Part shown: piece by piece, positions 6,665 through 20,805 of the stretch
Layout: each line of letters opens with the position of its first letter
Numbering within the stretch: position 1 is the first letter of the stretch
DNA from: a virus
IMG/VR virus record: IMGVR_UViG_3300020470_001463
Coordinates: 1-23,826 of that record
DNA length: 23,826 bases
Direction: 5' to 3' (one strand)
The notes under the pieces: generated by a model
The model's input: the letters and a program-made list of their open reading frames with translations, nothing else
What the model was told of the DNA's origin: nothing
The model's database searches: none
Program-made: the position numbers and the translations under genes

Positions 6665-7101
6665 GTCTATTCGAAGATATAAGAGATTTAGCAGGAGGTA
6701 AAGCACAAGCATCTTCTTGGTGGAGGAATCAGCTTTTCTTTGGATTACAAGGTGTTGATGGTCCTTTGACTGGAGCTGCCGCTACTTTTAACTACAGAGC
6801 AGAATTTGGTGAACAGATGGAAAAATGGGATAAGTATCCTATGGTTTATGTTTGGGGTGAAGATTCCACCCATTTTTGGGGGTCAAACGTACATTATTTA
6901 CCACCTGCTGCTAGAAGGGCAGGTTTTTCTATAGAAGCACCACCTCAGACTATACATAAATACCTGCGGAGGAATGTATTAAGTCCTCTATTAAGCGTGC
7001 CAGAATCTGAGTGGGATGACATTGGATTGATTCCCTCTGAGCAATTTGTAGTCACGATAAACGGGCGTGATATCCCGATACCCACCAGAGTAATATTCTA
7101 A
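6661..7101 (+). CDS. Conserved T4-type cyanophage protein of unknown function
   Basis: A 146-residue protein without signal peptide or membrane segment. Notable blocks are the N-terminus SLFEDIRDLAGGK, then SSWWRNQLFFGL, a central aromatic block with MVYVWGEDSTHFWGSNVHYL followed by PPAARR, and ESEWDDIGLIPSEQFV near the end. I recall this pattern (a fixed HYLPP followed by Arg) from conserved uncharacterised proteins of T4-like marine phages. The gene overlaps gp4 by 4 bases and ends on the start of a tail-tube-fold gene (TAATG), so a head-tail or baseplate morphogenesis role is likely. T4 gene 2 (DNA end protector) neighbours gene 4, but this protein is much shorter than gp2 and I see no clear match. 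Confidence 0.7.
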   Translation: MSLFEDIRDLAGGKAQASSWWRNQLFFGLQGVDGPLTGAAATFNYRAEFGEQMEKWDKYPMVYVWGEDSTHFWGSNVHYLPPAARRAGFSIEAPPQTIHKYLRRNVLSPLLSVPESEWDDIGLIPSEQFVVTINGRDIPIPTRVIF

Positions 7102-7832
7102 TGCCAGCCCCGAACTCATTTACGGTATTCCAAGATTTAGTTAAGACAGGTGCAATGGAACCTGCCTTGGGTAATCTGTATTCGGTTGAATTTGGATTTC
7201 CTGCTATTATCAAGTTTCTACCTGGTTTTCAGTTGAATCCTAGAAAATATTATGAAGCAATTAACTATTTTGCTGATGAAGTAACTATTCCATCACGTAA
7301 TGTCACCACAGGAGACATAAAGAATTTTGGTGTTACAAGGACATATGCAACAGGTCAAACAGCAAACGAACTATCAATATCATTTCTAGTCACTAAAGAT
7401 CAGTTCCATAGAGAACTATTTGAAAAGTGGATGAATAAGATGGCACCAGACTCAGAAAATAGAGTTGGGTTCTATGATGACTATACAACTAATGTGTATA
7501 TTAAAAAGTGGGAACGTGGTTCAAATCTTATATCATCTGTAAGAAAGGAAGGTGTAGATTTTCATTCAAGACTTAATAAAGCAGTAGGTGTATACCAATT
7601 TGTTAAAGTATATCCTTATAATATGGGTACTCAGGAATATGGGAATGCTCAAGGAGGAGTGATGAAATTGGATATACAGTTTAAATACGAGAGATATAGA
7701 TTTACAACTAAAGTTAAGAACGTAGGTGATTGGACTCAGGATGTAGTAGTTAATGATTTTAATAAGGTCAGTCAGCTATTAGACTTATCTGTAGGAAGAA
7801 CACGCTACGATCATACTGATTTTGGGGTCTAA
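7101..7832 (+). CDS. Tail-tube-fold protein, probable gp54-like tube initiator
   Basis: A 243-residue protein with hallmarks of the T4 gp19/gp54 tail-tube fold: an NLYSVEFGFP first strand, the loop DEVTIPSRNVTTGDIKNFGV, the exchange strand TANELSISFLVTKDQFHRE, and a late YQFVKVYPYNMG block followed by a strand-rich MKLDIQFKYERYRF segment. At 243 residues it is longer than the tube subunit gp19 (163) and shorter than gp54 (320). With gp48 nearby and gp26 next, a gp54-like initiator at the baseplate-tube junction is the best guess, but a tube-subunit variant is possible. Its stop codon is embedded in a CTAAATA late-promoter-like element. Confidence 0.65.
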   Translation: MPAPNSFTVFQDLVKTGAMEPALGNLYSVEFGFPAIIKFLPGFQLNPRKYYEAINYFADEVTIPSRNVTTGDIKNFGVTRTYATGQTANELSISFLVTKDQFHRELFEKWMNKMAPDSENRVGFYDDYTTNVYIKKWERGSNLISSVRKEGVDFHSRLNKAVGVYQFVKVYPYNMGTQEYGNAQGGVMKLDIQFKYERYRFTTKVKNVGDWTQDVVVNDFNKVSQLLDLSVGRTRYDHTDFGV

Positions 7833-7865: not shown

Positions 7866-8570
7866 ATGCCTTTACCAAAACTGAGCATTCCGACTTACGA
7901 CTGCGTGTTACCACGAGGTCAGAAGGTCACTTATCGACCTTTTTTAGTCCGTGAAGAAAAACTCCTTTATATGGCTATGGAAACCCAGAACCAGAAGGAG
8001 ATGATTAAAGCAGTGAAAGAGATCATTAAAGCTTGTACTGATATTAAAAATATCAATAGTCTTGCTACTTTTGATATCGAGTATCTGTTCCTTAAAATTC
8101 GTGGTAAGTCCGTAGGAGAAGTTAGTGAATTCAAATTAACTTGTCCAGATGATGAGAAAACTCAGGTCGATGTTGAAGTGAACTTGGATGAAGTTGAAGT
8201 GGTTATCCCAGGTGACCATACTAATATCATTAAGCTTACTGACGACGTTACATTAACGATGAAATATCCTTCATTGGACGTGTTCGTTAAGAGTAACCTC
8301 ACTGAGAATCCTGGTATAGATGATGTCTTTAAACTAGCAGCAGATTGTACTGATACAATCGCTGAGGGTGATGAACTTCACGATTCAAAAGATTATAAGA
8401 AGGCAGAACTAGTAGAATTCTTTGAAGGTATGAACTCACAACAGTTCCAAGATGTTCAAAAATTCTTTGAAACTATGCCTAAACTGTCTCACGACATTGA
8501 AATATTCAATCCTAAGACAGAAGTGACAAGTACAATAACCCTTGAGGGTCTCGCAGCTTTTTTCGAGTAG
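7866..8570 (+). CDS. 26: gp26 baseplate hub assembly protein
   Basis: A 234-residue homologue of T4 gp26 (208 residues), required for central hub assembly and thought to act as an assembly factor or chaperone. The N-terminus (LSIPTYDCVLPRGQKVTYRP followed by FLVREEKLLYMA) matches the family, followed by IKACTDIKNINSLATFDIEYLFLKIR as separate helix and strand blocks. The C-terminal half is acidic and helical (AELVEFFEGMNSQQFQDVQKF). The zero-frame product stops at TAG 8568-8570. A slippery heptamer just before this stop could divert a fraction of ribosomes into the gp51-like frame, giving a product of about 299 residues. There is no Shine-Dalgarno; the start context is TTACAAAATG. Confidence 0.9.
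   Translation: MPLPKLSIPTYDCVLPRGQKVTYRPFLVREEKLLYMAMETQNQKEMIKAVKEIIKACTDIKNINSLATFDIEYLFLKIRGKSVGEVSEFKLTCPDDEKTQVDVEVNLDEVEVVIPGDHTNIIKLTDDVTLTMKYPSLDVFVKSNLTENPGIDDVFKLAADCTDTIAEGDELHDSKDYKKAELVEFFEGMNSQQFQDVQKFFETMPKLSHDIEIFNPKTEVTSTITLEGLAAFFE
8544..8567 (+). promoter_or_regulatory. Candidate -1 programmed ribosomal frameshift site
   Basis: T TTT TTC at 8558-8564 is a canonical X XXY YYZ heptamer read in the gp26 zero frame as GCT TTT TTC. GAGGG at 8544-8548 is a Shine-Dalgarno-like stimulator 9 bases upstream, similar in spacing to dnaX. The zero-frame stop follows 4 bases after the heptamer. CTCG (8550-8553) and CGAG (8564-8567) can also pair around the site; no strong downstream hairpin was seen. 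Confidence 0.75.
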
Positions 8571-8764
8571 CCCTAGCCCACGACACACTGATGAATCTAT
8601 ATGAGACTAACTTTGCTTTGATGCAACATCATAAGTATAGTCTTACAGAACTTGAAAATATGATTCCGTGGGAGAGGGATGTTTATGTGAATCTCTTGGT
8701 TCGATTCCTTAGAGAAGAAGAGCAGAGACAGAAACGAGCAGCAGGTCAAAGTGCACCTCTATAA
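8564..8764 (+). CDS. 51: gp51-like hub assembly catalyst, made as -1 frameshift extension of gp26
   Basis: From the slippery site the -1 frame encodes RVALAHDTL and then a 57-residue ORF from ATG 8591 (MNLYETNFALMQHHKYS, then LTELENMIPWERDVYVNLL and a basic C-terminus), ending at TAA 8762-8764. T4 gene 51 likewise follows gene 26, and T4 gp51 acts catalytically in hub assembly, but it is much longer (249 residues). The compact ENMIPWERDVY core resembles what I recall of downstream frames of tail-assembly chaperones. No Shine-Dalgarno precedes ATG 8591 and no other ATG or GTG start lies between the slip site and it, so expression by frameshift is favoured; the fusion would be 233 + 66 residues. 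The stop abuts the next start (TAAATG). The small frame was too short for a usual ORF threshold. Confidence 0.72.
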   Translation, partial: RVALAHDTLMNLYETNFALMQHHKYSLTELENMIPWERDVYVNLLVRFLREEEQRQKRAAGQSAPL

Positions 8765-10846
8765 ATGGCGACACAGTTAAAGTTAAGAAAATTCCTACCA
8801 GCGAAAACGACAGGCAGTATTCGCAAGGATCCTAATGCAGCATTAACTACAAGTATTAACAGACTTGGTTTTGTCGTCAGCGATATTGGATCCATAATGC
8901 AGGGGTGGTTTGATACCAAACTTGCAATTATTGAAGATCAAAAAGATAGGGCAAATTTAGCAGCAGATAAAGCAAGAGAAGATAAGCTTGAAAAGGATGT
9001 TCAGGATGAGGTAGCAGAAGAAGCAGAGAAATCAGGTGTTGCTAAGAAATCTCAGACTTGGATACAGAAACTATTATCCCCATTTATGTGGATAGGTAGT
9101 GTGGTTGCTAAGTGGGCAATTTTAACCTTCTTATCTAACCCTGATAATGCGAATTTTATAAAAAATACGATACCAGTTATTAAAACGTGGTTAGGGACTT
9201 TCTTTAAAGTCACAATGACTGGTGTGAATTGGATTATGGATGCTTTCGCAGAAGATAGCATCATAATGGGTGCATTGAAGTTAATAGGTGGTATTGGTGC
9301 ATTAACGTTAGCGAGTAGGATATTACAACCTTGGAAATTAATAGGTGATGCAGCTAGATTTAAGAAGTTTTTAGATGCTGCTGGAGCTGCTGGTAATAAG
9401 AGGTTCCCCAAAACTATGGAAAGAGGACGTAGGTTCAGACGTAACCTAGGTCGTAGGATGAAGGTTCGTTCTGGCAGATTGGTGCAAGGTACTAGAAGAA
9501 CCCTTGCCACTGGTGGTAGAAGAGTAATGGGTGGTCTTAATAAGTTTGGTGCAAGAGGTGGATTTAGTGCTGTTGCAGGTATATCATCTTTTGCTGGTAG
9601 ATTGAATGCAGGAGATAGTGTACAGAAAGCAGCAGGTGGTGGTATAGGTGCTACTATTGGTGGTGTTGCATTAACAGCGTTCTTAACACCGATCTTAGGT
9701 CCATTTGCACCTTTGGTTGGTAATTTAATTGGTGGTTTTATAGGAGATAAGATTGGTGCATTCTTAGGTGAAGCAATGACACCTATATTTGCACCGTTGA
9801 AGAGATATTTTGTTGAAATAATGTTCCCAGTGCTGAAGTCACTGTTTGAACCGTTAGCAGGTCCGATAACAGAGTTCTTTGGAGCTCTGATGCCAGTTAT
9901 TCAGCAAATAGTTGATTTCCTCAAACCTATTTTTGATAGTGCAGTCAAGAAATTGACTGAGTGGCTTAATAGTGAGGAGATGAAGGTTGCTATTGATCGT
10001 CTCGTTGGATTCCTTAAGATGGCTTGGGAGATAGCGAAGAAGATTGGTGGTGCAGTTAAGAAACTTGCCTCTTCAGCAGTAGATACTATAACTAAGTTCA
10101 ATCCTTGGGCTTCTGCTGAACAGAAACAAAAGGTATGGATAAAGGATTCTGAGAAACAGACTGCTAATTTAAAGAAAGAATTTGAATATATCAAGAATCT
10201 TAGACAGGAAAGAATTGATAAAGGTGAAGATAAAGATACGGTAGATAAGTCTAGGTTTATTTGGCCAGGTGTTGATGGATTCGCTCCTTGGCCAATTCAT
10301 ACACCAGGTGGATTATCTGGAATGGTAATGGGTTTTGGTTGGGGTGAGATGGGATCTACCCTGAAGGACAAGATTAATCATTGGCCAAAGATGATTAAGG
10401 AGTCCAAAGAAAAGTGGGAGAAGCGTAAGGAAGAATTAGAGAAATTATTAAAGCAGAAGAAAGAAGAGGAAGCTAAGAAGAGAGAGAAAGAAGGTAAGTC
10501 TGCTGGTGGTGAAGTTACCATCAAAGCAGGACCACCAGGAAATCAGGAGACTGTTAAGAGGTGGTTATTTGGAATGATGGATGGTATGACTATGGGTCTT
10601 ACCGATTTTGATGGACGTGGAAGTACTCTTGATGGTGCTAAAAATATCCTTACAAGCGTTAGGGGTCAGATAAATAGTGAGCTGAAGGATAGATCCGAAC
10701 AAGCTGCTAGTGATGATCTCACTGATGTTTGTATTAAAACTAGGATTATTATGCAACCTGTTGTTAGAGATGTTATTAGAACCGTTCGTGGTGGACAGAA
10801 CATTCAAGTTGTCCACAAGACTCACTCAGCTGAGGTAAGTAGTTAA
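8765..10846 (+). CDS. Tape-measure-like tail/hub protein, copy 1 (gp29 position)
   Basis: A 693-residue protein placed where T4 gene 29 (tape measure, 590 residues) is expected, directly after gp26 and gp51. Layout: an N-terminal helix with a NRLGFVVSDIGSIM block; a charged coiled-coil region (about 55-95); amphipathic segments LLSPFMWIGSVVAKWAIL and SIIMGALKLIGGIGALTLAS; a very basic stretch (about 205-255, many Arg); and a Gly-zipper membrane-like region (about 285-345, GGGIGATIGGVALTAFL then GNLIGGFIGDKIGAFLG). A long Lys/Glu coiled coil (about 545-575) precedes a C-terminal domain. Such Gly-zipper plus coiled-coil proteins are typical tape measures and DNA-injection proteins. Specific gp29 homology is inference from position and architecture. 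Confidence 0.62.
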   Translation: MATQLKLRKFLPAKTTGSIRKDPNAALTTSINRLGFVVSDIGSIMQGWFDTKLAIIEDQKDRANLAADKAREDKLEKDVQDEVAEEAEKSGVAKKSQTWIQKLLSPFMWIGSVVAKWAILTFLSNPDNANFIKNTIPVIKTWLGTFFKVTMTGVNWIMDAFAEDSIIMGALKLIGGIGALTLASRILQPWKLIGDAARFKKFLDAAGAAGNKRFPKTMERGRRFRRNLGRRMKVRSGRLVQGTRRTLATGGRRVMGGLNKFGARGGFSAVAGISSFAGRLNAGDSVQKAAGGGIGATIGGVALTAFLTPILGPFAPLVGNLIGGFIGDKIGAFLGEAMTPIFAPLKRYFVEIMFPVLKSLFEPLAGPITEFFGALMPVIQQIVDFLKPIFDSAVKKLTEWLNSEEMKVAIDRLVGFLKMAWEIAKKIGGAVKKLASSAVDTITKFNPWASAEQKQKVWIKDSEKQTANLKKEFEYIKNLRQERIDKGEDKDTVDKSRFIWPGVDGFAPWPIHTPGGLSGMVMGFGWGEMGSTLKDKINHWPKMIKESKEKWEKRKEELEKLLKQKKEEEAKKREKEGKSAGGEVTIKAGPPGNQETVKRWLFGMMDGMTMGLTDFDGRGSTLDGAKNILTSVRGQINSELKDRSEQAASDDLTDVCIKTRIIMQPVVRDVIRTVRGGQNIQVVHKTHSAEVSS

Positions 10847-12807
10847 TGGCTAAGACAGTATCAAAAACAATTAGATTTTATAAGTATGTCACTCCCCCAA
10901 AGGATGATACTGCTGTCATAGTTGGCAATAAGACTATTGCTGGTACAAATTTCACATCAACTATTACTGCAATTAACTCGTTAGGTGCTACGGTTAATAG
11001 TCTTGGTGTGATGATGAAGGGGATACGTAATAATCAGATTGAACAGGCAGAAGATGCTAGAAGGAATGCACAGTTAATAGCAGACCAGTCAAGGGAGAAT
11101 GATCTTGAAGCTAAAGATCAAGATGGTGGTGCTGGCAAGGTCATTAAGAATATCGCTAAGGGTGGAATAGGTTTCTTAGGACATCTATGGAAGATGTTCA
11201 AGCAACTTGCTCTATTCGGTGCCTTGAATTGGTTGTCAGATGAAAAGAATAGAGAGAAAATACAAAAGATAGTTAAACGTGTTGGTGCTTTCCTTAAATG
11301 GATGGTAGATACGTTTACAAGTATTGCGAAATTTATAGGAGACTCGTGGGATAAAACTTTTGGTGAAGGCAAGACCTTTATGCAAAGGTTGGAGGGTGCA
11401 GCCAAATTATTAGGTGCAGCAGGTCTAGGATTATTAGGCTTAGGATTCTTAACTAATCCTCTTGCCACTATTAAAAACTTTACTAGTATTCTTGGTGCAG
11501 TTGGTAAGGGTATCCTTAATATGGGTAAGTTCCTAGGAGGGAACAGACTCGGAAGATTTGGTTTAGCACTTGGACAAGGTGTAGCAGCATATCAAGAAAT
11601 TAGTCAAGATGAATCTATACCTGAAGAGGATAGACAGGCTGCTGCTATAGGTGGATCCACTGGTGCTACTGTAGGTTCTATCGCTGGTGGTGAGATTGGT
11701 GCTAAGTTCTTAGGACCTATTGGTGGTCTAATTGGTAGTGCTTTAGGTGGATTCTTAGGTAAGCACGCTGGTAAGTTCTTAGGTCCAGTTGTACAGGAGA
11801 CATTTGAGAAGATCAAGGTGATCTTTAATCAGGTAATGGAGTTTGTTAACAAGATAATGGAACCCATTATGGCTGCTGTCCAAGACTTCTTTAAAGCATT
11901 AGGACCAGCAATAGACAAGGCAGTGGACTTTATTAAACCACATCTGCCTAAGATAATGGAGATTGGTAATATTATAGGAAAGGTTGCGTTTGCTCCTTTG
12001 ATCTTACTGTTCAAAGGTCTGACAAAACTTCTTAAGATGATACCTTCTAAGCAAGAAATAGAAGGTGTTAAGGCAGAACAGGATAAAGCAGAAGGTAAAT
12101 CTATAGGTGGTGTTGTACAAGCACCTAAGATGGTACCTTATCCAAATCTACCAACACTGAAGATACCACAGTTCAGTAAGGGTGGATGGATACACGGTCC
12201 CCAGTCAGGTTATCCTGTATCAATGTCTGGTAAAGGTATTGATTTCATTGGTCACGGTACAGAGTATGTTGCTAGGAGATCATCAGGTGGATTTGTCATA
12301 CCATTTGATACTCCACATACAAGAAGAGATCCTGGTTTAACTTCACGTAGAATAGGTCAAGCAAAAGCAGGTGGATATAAGGTACCTGGATTCTCTAAAG
12401 GTGGTCCTATTGTAAATCCACCAGTATATAATTTACATATACCTAGTAGAAGTCTTGGTGGATTCGTAAAGAATACAACAAAGACAATGATAAAAGCGAA
12501 TCCTTTAGCTGCTGTTGCCCTTAAAGCTGCTGAACCACACGTTAAGAATGCTGGTAGTGCATTGGTTACAGCATTTACTAAGGTTAAGGAGGCTGCTAAT
12601 GAAGCAACAGGTGGTGCACTAGATGGTGCTATTGAAGCAATGGTTGCACAAGCAATCAAAGCTCCACCATCCCAGACTGGTGATATAGGTGGTGGTCCTG
12701 AAACACCTATCATTCAGGATGTTCCACGTAATCCAGCAGCACAATTCCTAGTCAGTAGGTTTGGTAGATCTGCTGAATCTAATAACCCAGTAAGTAACTT
12801 CTTATGA
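10846..12807 (+). CDS. Tape-measure-like tail/hub protein, copy 2 (paralogue)
   Basis: A 653-residue protein with the same order of elements as the preceding one, starting on its stop codon (TAATG). It has an INSLGATVNSLGVMMKGI N-terminal block, an EDARRNAQLIADQSRENDLE coiled coil, an LGHLWKMFKQLALFGALNWL helix, and Gly-zipper repeats (about 270-320, including GGSTGATVGSIAGGEIGAKF). A helical bundle ending at FIKPHLPKI follows. The C-terminal part differs: Gly/Pro/Ser-rich repeats with SKGGWIHGPQSG, SGGFVIPFDT, FSKGGPIVNPP and SLGGFVKNTT, a style common in phage tape-measure C-termini. It overlaps the gp27-like gene by 4 bases. It probably arose by ancient duplication; whether both act as tape measures or one serves in DNA delivery is open. 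Confidence 0.62.
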   Translation: MAKTVSKTIRFYKYVTPPKDDTAVIVGNKTIAGTNFTSTITAINSLGATVNSLGVMMKGIRNNQIEQAEDARRNAQLIADQSRENDLEAKDQDGGAGKVIKNIAKGGIGFLGHLWKMFKQLALFGALNWLSDEKNREKIQKIVKRVGAFLKWMVDTFTSIAKFIGDSWDKTFGEGKTFMQRLEGAAKLLGAAGLGLLGLGFLTNPLATIKNFTSILGAVGKGILNMGKFLGGNRLGRFGLALGQGVAAYQEISQDESIPEEDRQAAAIGGSTGATVGSIAGGEIGAKFLGPIGGLIGSALGGFLGKHAGKFLGPVVQETFEKIKVIFNQVMEFVNKIMEPIMAAVQDFFKALGPAIDKAVDFIKPHLPKIMEIGNIIGKVAFAPLILLFKGLTKLLKMIPSKQEIEGVKAEQDKAEGKSIGGVVQAPKMVPYPNLPTLKIPQFSKGGWIHGPQSGYPVSMSGKGIDFIGHGTEYVARRSSGGFVIPFDTPHTRRDPGLTSRRIGQAKAGGYKVPGFSKGGPIVNPPVYNLHIPSRSLGGFVKNTTKTMIKANPLAAVALKAAEPHVKNAGSALVTAFTKVKEAANEATGGALDGAIEAMVAQAIKAPPSQTGDIGGGPETPIIQDVPRNPAAQFLVSRFGRSAESNNPVSNFL

Positions 12808-19479: not shown

Positions 19480-20805
19480 GTGGGAACCAAAAGAATTTCA
19501 CAATTAGATACTCTGGCAGATGGTGTCTTGACAGGAGAAGCAGTTCTCCCAGTTGTAATCTCCGATCCACTTATTCCTAACCGTAAAGCGAAGATTAATC
19601 AGATCTTTAAAGGTGTAGGTGCGGGATCTCAGTCACAGCCTGGTCTCTGCTTTGATTTGGATAGAGACACAGGTCTTTACCAAGATGCTTATAATGAGTT
19701 GGGTCTTGCTTTCGGTACATCTAGTATGTACTATAAGAAGCAAGATAATGCTGATGGTTCTGCTACGATTCGATTTATTGCAGGAGATACAACATCTTCT
19801 AATGTTAACATTGATATGCGACCGCAGGGTTCTGGTAAGTTCCTTGTTAATGGTCCTGCTGAATTCCAAGATGTAAGTTTTTTCCTTGCTGACGATCAGA
19901 ACCCTGATAAGAAAGCAAAGTTTGAAATCTCTGGTATATCTACTGGTGCAGGAATAAGGTCATTTGCGTTACCAAGTACAGGAAGTTTTACTTCTACTAC
20001 TCTGTTAGGTAACGATACCGCACAGACTATTAGTAATAAGACTATCATCATTCAGGATGGTAACTTACAAATTGTAGGTTCATCTAACGCTGGTAAGATA
20101 GCACTATTCGAGACTGACTCTTGGGAAGCACCCGTCACGCACATCTATAGACTGCCTGACTATGGTACTTCTGCATCTCAGTCTACTTTGATTGATACTA
20201 TTACTGAGCAGAATGTCAGTAATAAGAATTTAATCAATCCATCTATTTCAAACATTGAATCTGGTGATCCAAATAACCCTACACCAAAGGTTACTTTTAA
20301 TTCACCTGATGTAACATCTGATCGTGTTGTTATTTTCCCTGACGAGTCATTGACTGTTGCAGGTACTGAATCAACACAGACTATGAAGAACAAGGATTAT
20401 GCTGATCCTCGTTTTGCTGATGCTACTGATATTACTAAGCGTATTCAGTTTGATATATCTGATGTCCCAGGTGCTACAATTCTTAGATACGCATTTCCTT
20501 ATGCTCAGTTAAATACACAATTATCTGAGAATAATGTTCTAGTTACTGAACTAGCACAACAAGTATTAGATAACAAGACTATTAGGTCACTTAGGTTGGT
20601 TTCTGAAGATAACGATCAGAACCAAATTATTATGGACCTAAGTAATATTACGGGAACGAAGTCAATTAGTTTCCCAGATGCAAATGCAACACTATTATCT
20701 ACCGAGAACGTCGGCACCTTGGGTGTTAGTTTCGGTGGTGAGATCTCCGCACCTGACTTCGGTGGTAGACTCAGACTCACAAATCATTTCTTCGCAGGTT
20801 GGTAA
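19480..20805 (+). CDS. Tail-fibre-like structural protein with NKTI repeats
   Basis: A 441-residue virion protein. The N-terminus (GTKRISQLDTLADG, then LPVVISDPLIPNRKAKINQI) is the common attachment-type start of cyanophage fibre proteins. Residues about 45-130 form a Gly/Asp-rich beta region (LCFDLDRDTGLYQD, IDMRPQGSGKFLVNG). From about 161 to 408 there are irregular repeats pairing an FPD/LPD block with a Q-T-x-x-NKTI block, as in many fibre shafts. The end (GGEISAPDFGGRLRLTNHFF) is probably a cap or trimerisation segment. GTG is the start, because MGTKR homologues begin here and no ATG is nearby. A TATAAATA element lies just upstream. The receptor or exact location on the particle is unknown. 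Confidence 0.72.
   Translation: MGTKRISQLDTLADGVLTGEAVLPVVISDPLIPNRKAKINQIFKGVGAGSQSQPGLCFDLDRDTGLYQDAYNELGLAFGTSSMYYKKQDNADGSATIRFIAGDTTSSNVNIDMRPQGSGKFLVNGPAEFQDVSFFLADDQNPDKKAKFEISGISTGAGIRSFALPSTGSFTSTTLLGNDTAQTISNKTIIIQDGNLQIVGSSNAGKIALFETDSWEAPVTHIYRLPDYGTSASQSTLIDTITEQNVSNKNLINPSISNIESGDPNNPTPKVTFNSPDVTSDRVVIFPDESLTVAGTESTQTMKNKDYADPRFADATDITKRIQFDISDVPGATILRYAFPYAQLNTQLSENNVLVTELAQQVLDNKTIRSLRLVSEDNDQNQIIMDLSNITGTKSISFPDANATLLSTENVGTLGVSFGGEISAPDFGGRLRLTNHFFAGW
19960..20703 (+). repeat. Degenerate protein-coding repeats (FPD...NKTI units)
   Basis: Within the fibre protein, units occur at about residues 161-190, 221-252, 284-306 and 336-368, with a final half-unit at 396-408. Each joins an (F/L)P block ending near TL(L/I/V) to a Q-x-(I/V/M/L)-x-NK block: AQTISNKTI, EQNVSNKNLI, TQTMKNKDYA, QQVLDNKTIR. 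They are diverged at DNA level, so this is a structural shaft repeat rather than a recent duplication. Confidence 0.6.

Follow-up and report, generated by a model that had tools for sequence, protein, structure and literature searches.

A conserved in-phase slippery heptamer points to -1 ribosomal frameshifting in the tail assembly chaperone gene of a T4-type phage

The tail assembly chaperone gene (gp26/gp51) of the virus IMGVR_UViG_3300020470_001463 is very probably decoded by programmed -1 ribosomal frameshifting (probability roughly 0.93). The window, i.e. the whole stretch of 23,826 bases that was analysed, contains a tail gene cluster of T4 type with genes predicted to encode a baseplate wedge protein, tail tube cap, head closure, DNA end protector, tail tube and gp26, followed by a gp51-like stub, two tape-measure/endolysin-like genes, a tail protein and a baseplate hub/lysozyme. 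The gp26/gp51 locus is located between the tail tube (phrog_45) and tape measure (phrog_167) genes and comprises the following features:

7101-7832, + strand: gene encoding the tail tube protein, 5' context (phrog_45 tail tube, E 9.7e-41)
7866-8570, + strand: gp26-like short tail assembly chaperone (TAC-N) of 234 amino acids (PF12322 T4_baseplate, E 3.8e-67; phrog_150, E 1.3e-75)
8544-8548, + strand: GAGGG, similar to a Shine-Dalgarno (SD) sequence, separated from the heptamer by 9 nt and likely to stimulate the slip from upstream (match of at least four bases in 78/86 non-redundant loci)
8558-8564, + strand: slippery heptamer T_TTT_TTC in the phase of gp26, suited to a tandem slip (from the sequence; T_TTT_TTN in phase in 267/267 loci, 242 with C)
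8564-8764, + strand: -1 frame extension RVALAHDTLMNLYETNF... with the gp51-like domain, 66 amino acids plus stop (phrog_634, E 5.7e-32 over 8552-8749)
8568-8570, + strand: TAG, zero-frame stop of gp26 (from the sequence)
8591-8593, + strand: ATG, gp51 start of the type chosen by annotation pipelines, judged not to be the main start (position not conserved among relatives)
8765-10846, + strand: tape-measure-like gene, directly 3' context (phrog_167 tail length tape measure protein, E 8.8e-11)

The assignment of gp26 is based on a PF12322 score of 226.6 bits against a gathering cut-off of 24.5. Its gene ends with CTT GAG GGT CTC GCA GCT TTT TTC GAG TAG. An earlier note on this DNA had placed T TTT TTC in the correct phase at 8558-8564 and GAGGG nine bases upstream of it, and had described the -1 frame as open from the heptamer into a gp51-like ORF ending at 8764; all of this was confirmed in the sequence. 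From 8546 on, the -1 frame is open; it reads FFRVALAHDTLMNLYETNF... and continues across the gp26 stop up to 8761, with TAA at 8762-8764. The lengths of 234 residues for gp26 and 299 residues (233 + 66) for the predicted fusion were likewise correct, as were the other coordinates, the only slip being the distance between the heptamer and the gp26 stop, which is three bases and not four. Here two different frames encode the gp26-like part and the C-terminal domain of gp51, unlike in the single-frame gp51 of T4 type. Among the ORFs of at least 100 amino acids in the window, the sole other in-phase T_TTT_TT[T/C] was detected at position 19878 within a virion structural protein gene (19480-20805).

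Relatives of the locus were fetched from viral contigs via the gp26 protein, the gp51 stub and the -1 frame alignment, and furthermore from genome contigs and isolates; the gp26 protein and gp51 stub queries were not picked for the presence of the heptamer. We examined 276 sequences, 267 of which contained a complete gp26 C-terminus together with the gp51 domain. Each of these 267 two-part loci, representing 180 distinct junctions, encodes gp51 in the -1 frame and carries an in-phase T_TTT_TTN. A non-redundant set of 86 junctions with pairwise identities below 90% was chosen to hold T_TTT_TT[T/C], a filter which no locus failed. The codon before the heptamer was GCT, AGT, GAT, AAT or TCT in this set, encoding A, S, D or N, and was always T-final and then followed by TTT. 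Based on codon usage the nominal probability of such a T-final codon plus TTT is 1e-40, a value that assumes independent sequences and is to be read as "very small", the junctions being related and their counts therefore not independent.

In the background genes of the same loci TTT accounts for 64% of the Phe codons but Phe-Phe is encoded by TTT TTC in only 21 of 363 cases (6%), so that this codon pair is normally avoided. The in-phase T_TTT_TT[T/C] occurs there 16 times in 120,499 codons, i.e. 1.3e-4 per codon, and the presence of T_TTT_TTN in 267 of 267 loci at the gp26/gp51 junction is therefore not due to chance. Loci encoding Phe-Leu in the zero frame (T TTT TTA; L181 and L187) or with the zero-frame stop 21 nt later (L113, L120 and L129) have a -1 product of the same kind. 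Moreover, the nearest -1 stop lies 3-45 nt 5' of the heptamer in 81 of the 86 junctions, which confines the shift to a short stretch always holding the heptamer.

The -1 heptamer was found in S-WAM1, P-TIM40, S-RSM4, ACG-2014f, S-CREM2, Melnitz (Methylophilales), phiN3 (Sinorhizobium), IC12 (Agrobacterium), DLP_6 and Ps15 (both Stenotrophomonas) and ACP17 (Acidovorax). The T4-type phage locus is also present in contigs L174-L195, the bins of which are named Euryarchaeota, Nonlabens, Chloroflexi, Paceibacter and others; it represents phage sequence in those assemblies, which was probably mis-binned in several of them.

The fusion could also result from slippage of the RNA polymerase on the T6 run, which would add a base to some of the mRNAs. 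All 267 loci indeed have six or more T in succession. However, six T are short for this process, and the heptamer ends with C in 242 loci, with T in 15 and with A or G in 10 (9 A, 1 G), though a longer T run would slip more. Taking furthermore into account that the phase required for a tandem slip is constant and that the SD-like element has a spacing similar to that of known -1 stimulators, it seems very unlikely that the polymerase is responsible.

With regard to the frame under selection, entropy was determined for the zero-frame codon positions 1, 2 and 3 in 80 Kyanoviridae-type junctions. The mean values 5' of the heptamer were 1.22, 0.85 and 1.65, the third position being the most variable as in coding in the gp26 frame. 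In the 27 bases 3' of the heptamer they were 0.60, 1.52 and 1.18, and beyond these 0.26, 1.19 and 0.47; the most variable position there is the third position of the -1 frame. The coding frame hence switches at the heptamer and not at a later ATG. The alignment of the -1 products of these junctions is free of gaps from FFR on, with the consensus FFRIALxHDSLxNxYxTNFALMQHHKYSLTELENMIPWERDVYVNLL.

These data also bear on the assumption made in public annotations, according to which gp51 is a separate small protein with its own start (ATG 8591), the translation of which would depend on reinitiation at, or coupling to, the end of gp26. An in-frame ATG is present at 8591, and several public records give gp51 a start of its own. 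This ATG is the only ATG, GTG or TTG in the -1 frame before the conserved core. Among the relatives, however, 35 of the 86 junctions have none of these codons in the -1 frame before the core and 17 only GTG or TTG, whereas the existing gp51-frame ATGs are located at drifting positions, with an anti-SD match of at least four bases for 4 of 51. The conservation of the peptide begins at the heptamer and thus 5' of 8591, and the phrog_634 match of the -1 product (8552-8749) likewise takes in residues upstream of this ATG. The earlier note had additionally pointed to the lack of an SD sequence at 8591. The observation is correct but weak as an argument and was not relied on, since genuine starts are often without SD here too: it is absent from the gp26 and tape-measure starts of the window, and among 82 relatives the gp26 start is preceded by a match of at least four bases in only 42. 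An SD sequence would therefore be dispensable for a separate gp51, too. Since a separate gp51 would leave the invariant in-phase heptamer unexplained, we regard it as very unlikely.

The alignment across relatives thus retained both the phase of the heptamer and the -1 position of gp51, and no independent start was conserved; homologues encoding gp51 in another phase with its own ribosome-binding site were not detected in the Kyanoviridae-type set. With 267 of 267 loci, comparative sequence evidence argues for the -1 fusion of gp26 to the gp51-like protein as it had been predicted. A different junction was found in the distant Vibrio phage K364 (L167, 3085-3130), which contains no slippery heptamer but a TAATG overlap with the ATG across the gp26 stop. 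This junction, which fits a separately started gp51, may represent reinitiation in place of frameshifting, and the mechanism is therefore not universal in the wider group. Nearly all T4 relatives checked outside T4's own family nevertheless appear to share the slip.

With regard to stimulatory elements, an SD-like GAGGG or GAAGG is located 8-10 nt 5' of the slip, the matches mostly ending 8-10 nt before it. Matches of at least four bases were present in 78 of the 86 loci versus 26% of the control windows, but resampling of the codons with the amino acids preserved already gives 74.5. The enrichment follows partly from a conserved Leu-Glu-Gly motif, at which GAG and GGA/GGG are over-used. Matches of at least five bases occurred in 33 of the 86 loci versus 18.8 +/- 3.4 (maximum 31) in 200 codon resamples with the amino acids kept, suggesting that the SD-like stretch is longer than codon choice predicts. 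The GAGGG element resembles the known SD stimulator of dnaX in E. coli. Pairing between rRNA and mRNA as a stimulator of -1 frameshifting was described by Larsen et al. (1994), as cited in PMC10885494. In the window, the 70 nt directly 3' of the heptamer contained no stable hairpin (z +0.87), and neither the 80 junctions nor 11 close junctions yielded a consensus downstream structure. A structure in 8570-8670 (z -2.05) was discarded as a candidate stimulator, being too distant and unsupported by the alignment.

The gp26 protein and the extension were modelled separately, and the AlphaFold2 model of gp26, based on 38 relatives (pLDDT 86), was searched against the PDB. The matches of Foldseek alone were weak; after realignment the top match was the HK97 tail assembly chaperone 2ob9 with Z 7.2, the next row reaching 4.8. 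This match covers only the N-terminal third (model residues 1-83; 4.1 A over 82 residues, 8% identity), and a Z of 7.2 may reflect no more than a shared arrangement. Combined with the order tail tube - gp26/gp51 - tape measure, the resemblance of the modelled fold supports a role of gp26/gp51 as tail assembly chaperone. The extension is predicted with moderate confidence to be helical, and its first helix starts at the junction, which fits a fused product better than a product starting at 8591. Sequence relatives of note were found in the PDB neither for gp26 nor for the extension, and scattered, weak Pfam matches of the extension were judged to be due to chance. Comparing the profiles with single sequences of lambda G/T and P2 E/E' by hhalign revealed no relation; tail assembly chaperones are highly diverged in sequence.

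The locus shares its organisation with well-known systems. Like gpG/gpGT of phage lambda it would encode a short protein and a -1 long form between the tail tube and tape measure genes, and the gene order corresponds to V-G/T-H in lambda and to FII-E/E'-T in P2, where FII is the tube protein (the P2 record names it head closure). It differs from lambda in the heptamer (TTTTTTC instead of GGGAAAG) and in the size of the short form (234 versus 140 amino acids), with no detectable sequence relation. The modelled N-terminal domain of gp26 has its best match in the HK97 chaperone (PDB 2OB9). P2 is similar in having a contractile tail, an annotated -1 site located close to the 3' end of the short form's gene and consisting of an in-phase T_TTT_TTG, and a tape measure gene overlapping or directly following; a sequence relation to E or E' is again not detectable.

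In T4, the match to the gp26 profile extends over the whole of gp26 (E 3.1e-24), and gp51 matches both the gp26 profile (E 6.5e-5) and, C-terminally, the extension profile (E 1.1e-5). A joined gp26-gp51 form therefore exists naturally and, judged by these matches, T4 gp51 is the long form, kept as a separate gp26-like fusion. Since genes 26 and 51 of T4 are separate and located on opposite strands, the long form being encoded by an ordinary single-frame ORF, no frameshift joins them.

Lambda-type frameshifting has been described as conserved in long-tailed phages except T4 (PMC5009743). Vladimirov, Gautam & Davidson (2022, Virology 566:9) identified tail assembly chaperone (TAC) genes of T4-like phages, a study to which both PMC10885494 and PMC12846349 refer. 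According to PMC10885494 it showed that some T4-like phages have a short TAC gene and a separate long (fusion) one, and in PMC12846349 it is the reference for -1 signals of poly-T type in the TAC-N genes of T4-like phages; its title argues for a mechanism other than frameshifting. The novelty implied in the earlier note was hence overstated as T4-like TAC genes had been published in 2022, while the predicted frameshift itself is well supported. It would represent a case of a known mechanism and was possibly already reported for the T4-like phage group.

Concerning the cell, we infer the following course of events. Most ribosomes would end at 8568 and produce gp26, the short chaperone. In a minority, tRNA-Phe in the P and A sites on TTT TTC would slip back by one base at T_TTT_TTC, presumably aided by pairing of the upstream GAGGG with the 16S rRNA, and these ribosomes would continue in the -1 frame to form the long chaperone, a gp26-gp51 fusion of 299 residues. 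As with gpG/gpGT of lambda, the shared part may coat the tape measure protein while the extension would recruit tail tube subunits.

A tape-measure-like ATG follows directly after the gp51 stop in the window (8762-8767). Of the non-redundant relatives, 63 could be scored, and in 49 of these the tape-measure start overlaps with the 3' end of the gp51 frame, by one base in 40 of them; few SD matches were found, and translation of the tape measure gene may be coupled to the frameshifted ribosomes. The adjacent large genes at 8765-10846 and 10846-12807 both match phrog_167 (tape measure), phrog_1200 (endolysin), phrog_17500 and phrog_12696, which suggests a tandem duplication or a split of a tape-measure/lysin protein.

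A joined gp26-gp51 gene was annotated in none of the isolate records compared (S-WAM1 to K364). The frameshift would account for the annotation of gp51 as a stub with drifting starts, or for its omission as in S-WAM1, and would correct the annotation in hundreds of public genomes, the gp51 stub matching 568 records when used as query. A -1 site of textbook form is thereby assigned to a branch of the T4 superfamily that is abundant in the sea. Rather tentatively, the gp26/gp51 frameshift may be usual and probably ancestral in the T4 superfamily outside Straboviridae, i.e. in cyanophages and in relatives infecting Methylophilales, Sinorhizobium, Agrobacterium, Stenotrophomonas and Acidovorax, with the split genes of T4 being derived and the translation of the tape measure being coupled to frameshifted ribosomes. 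If this coupling is true, the output of tape measure protein would be tied to the amount of the long chaperone.
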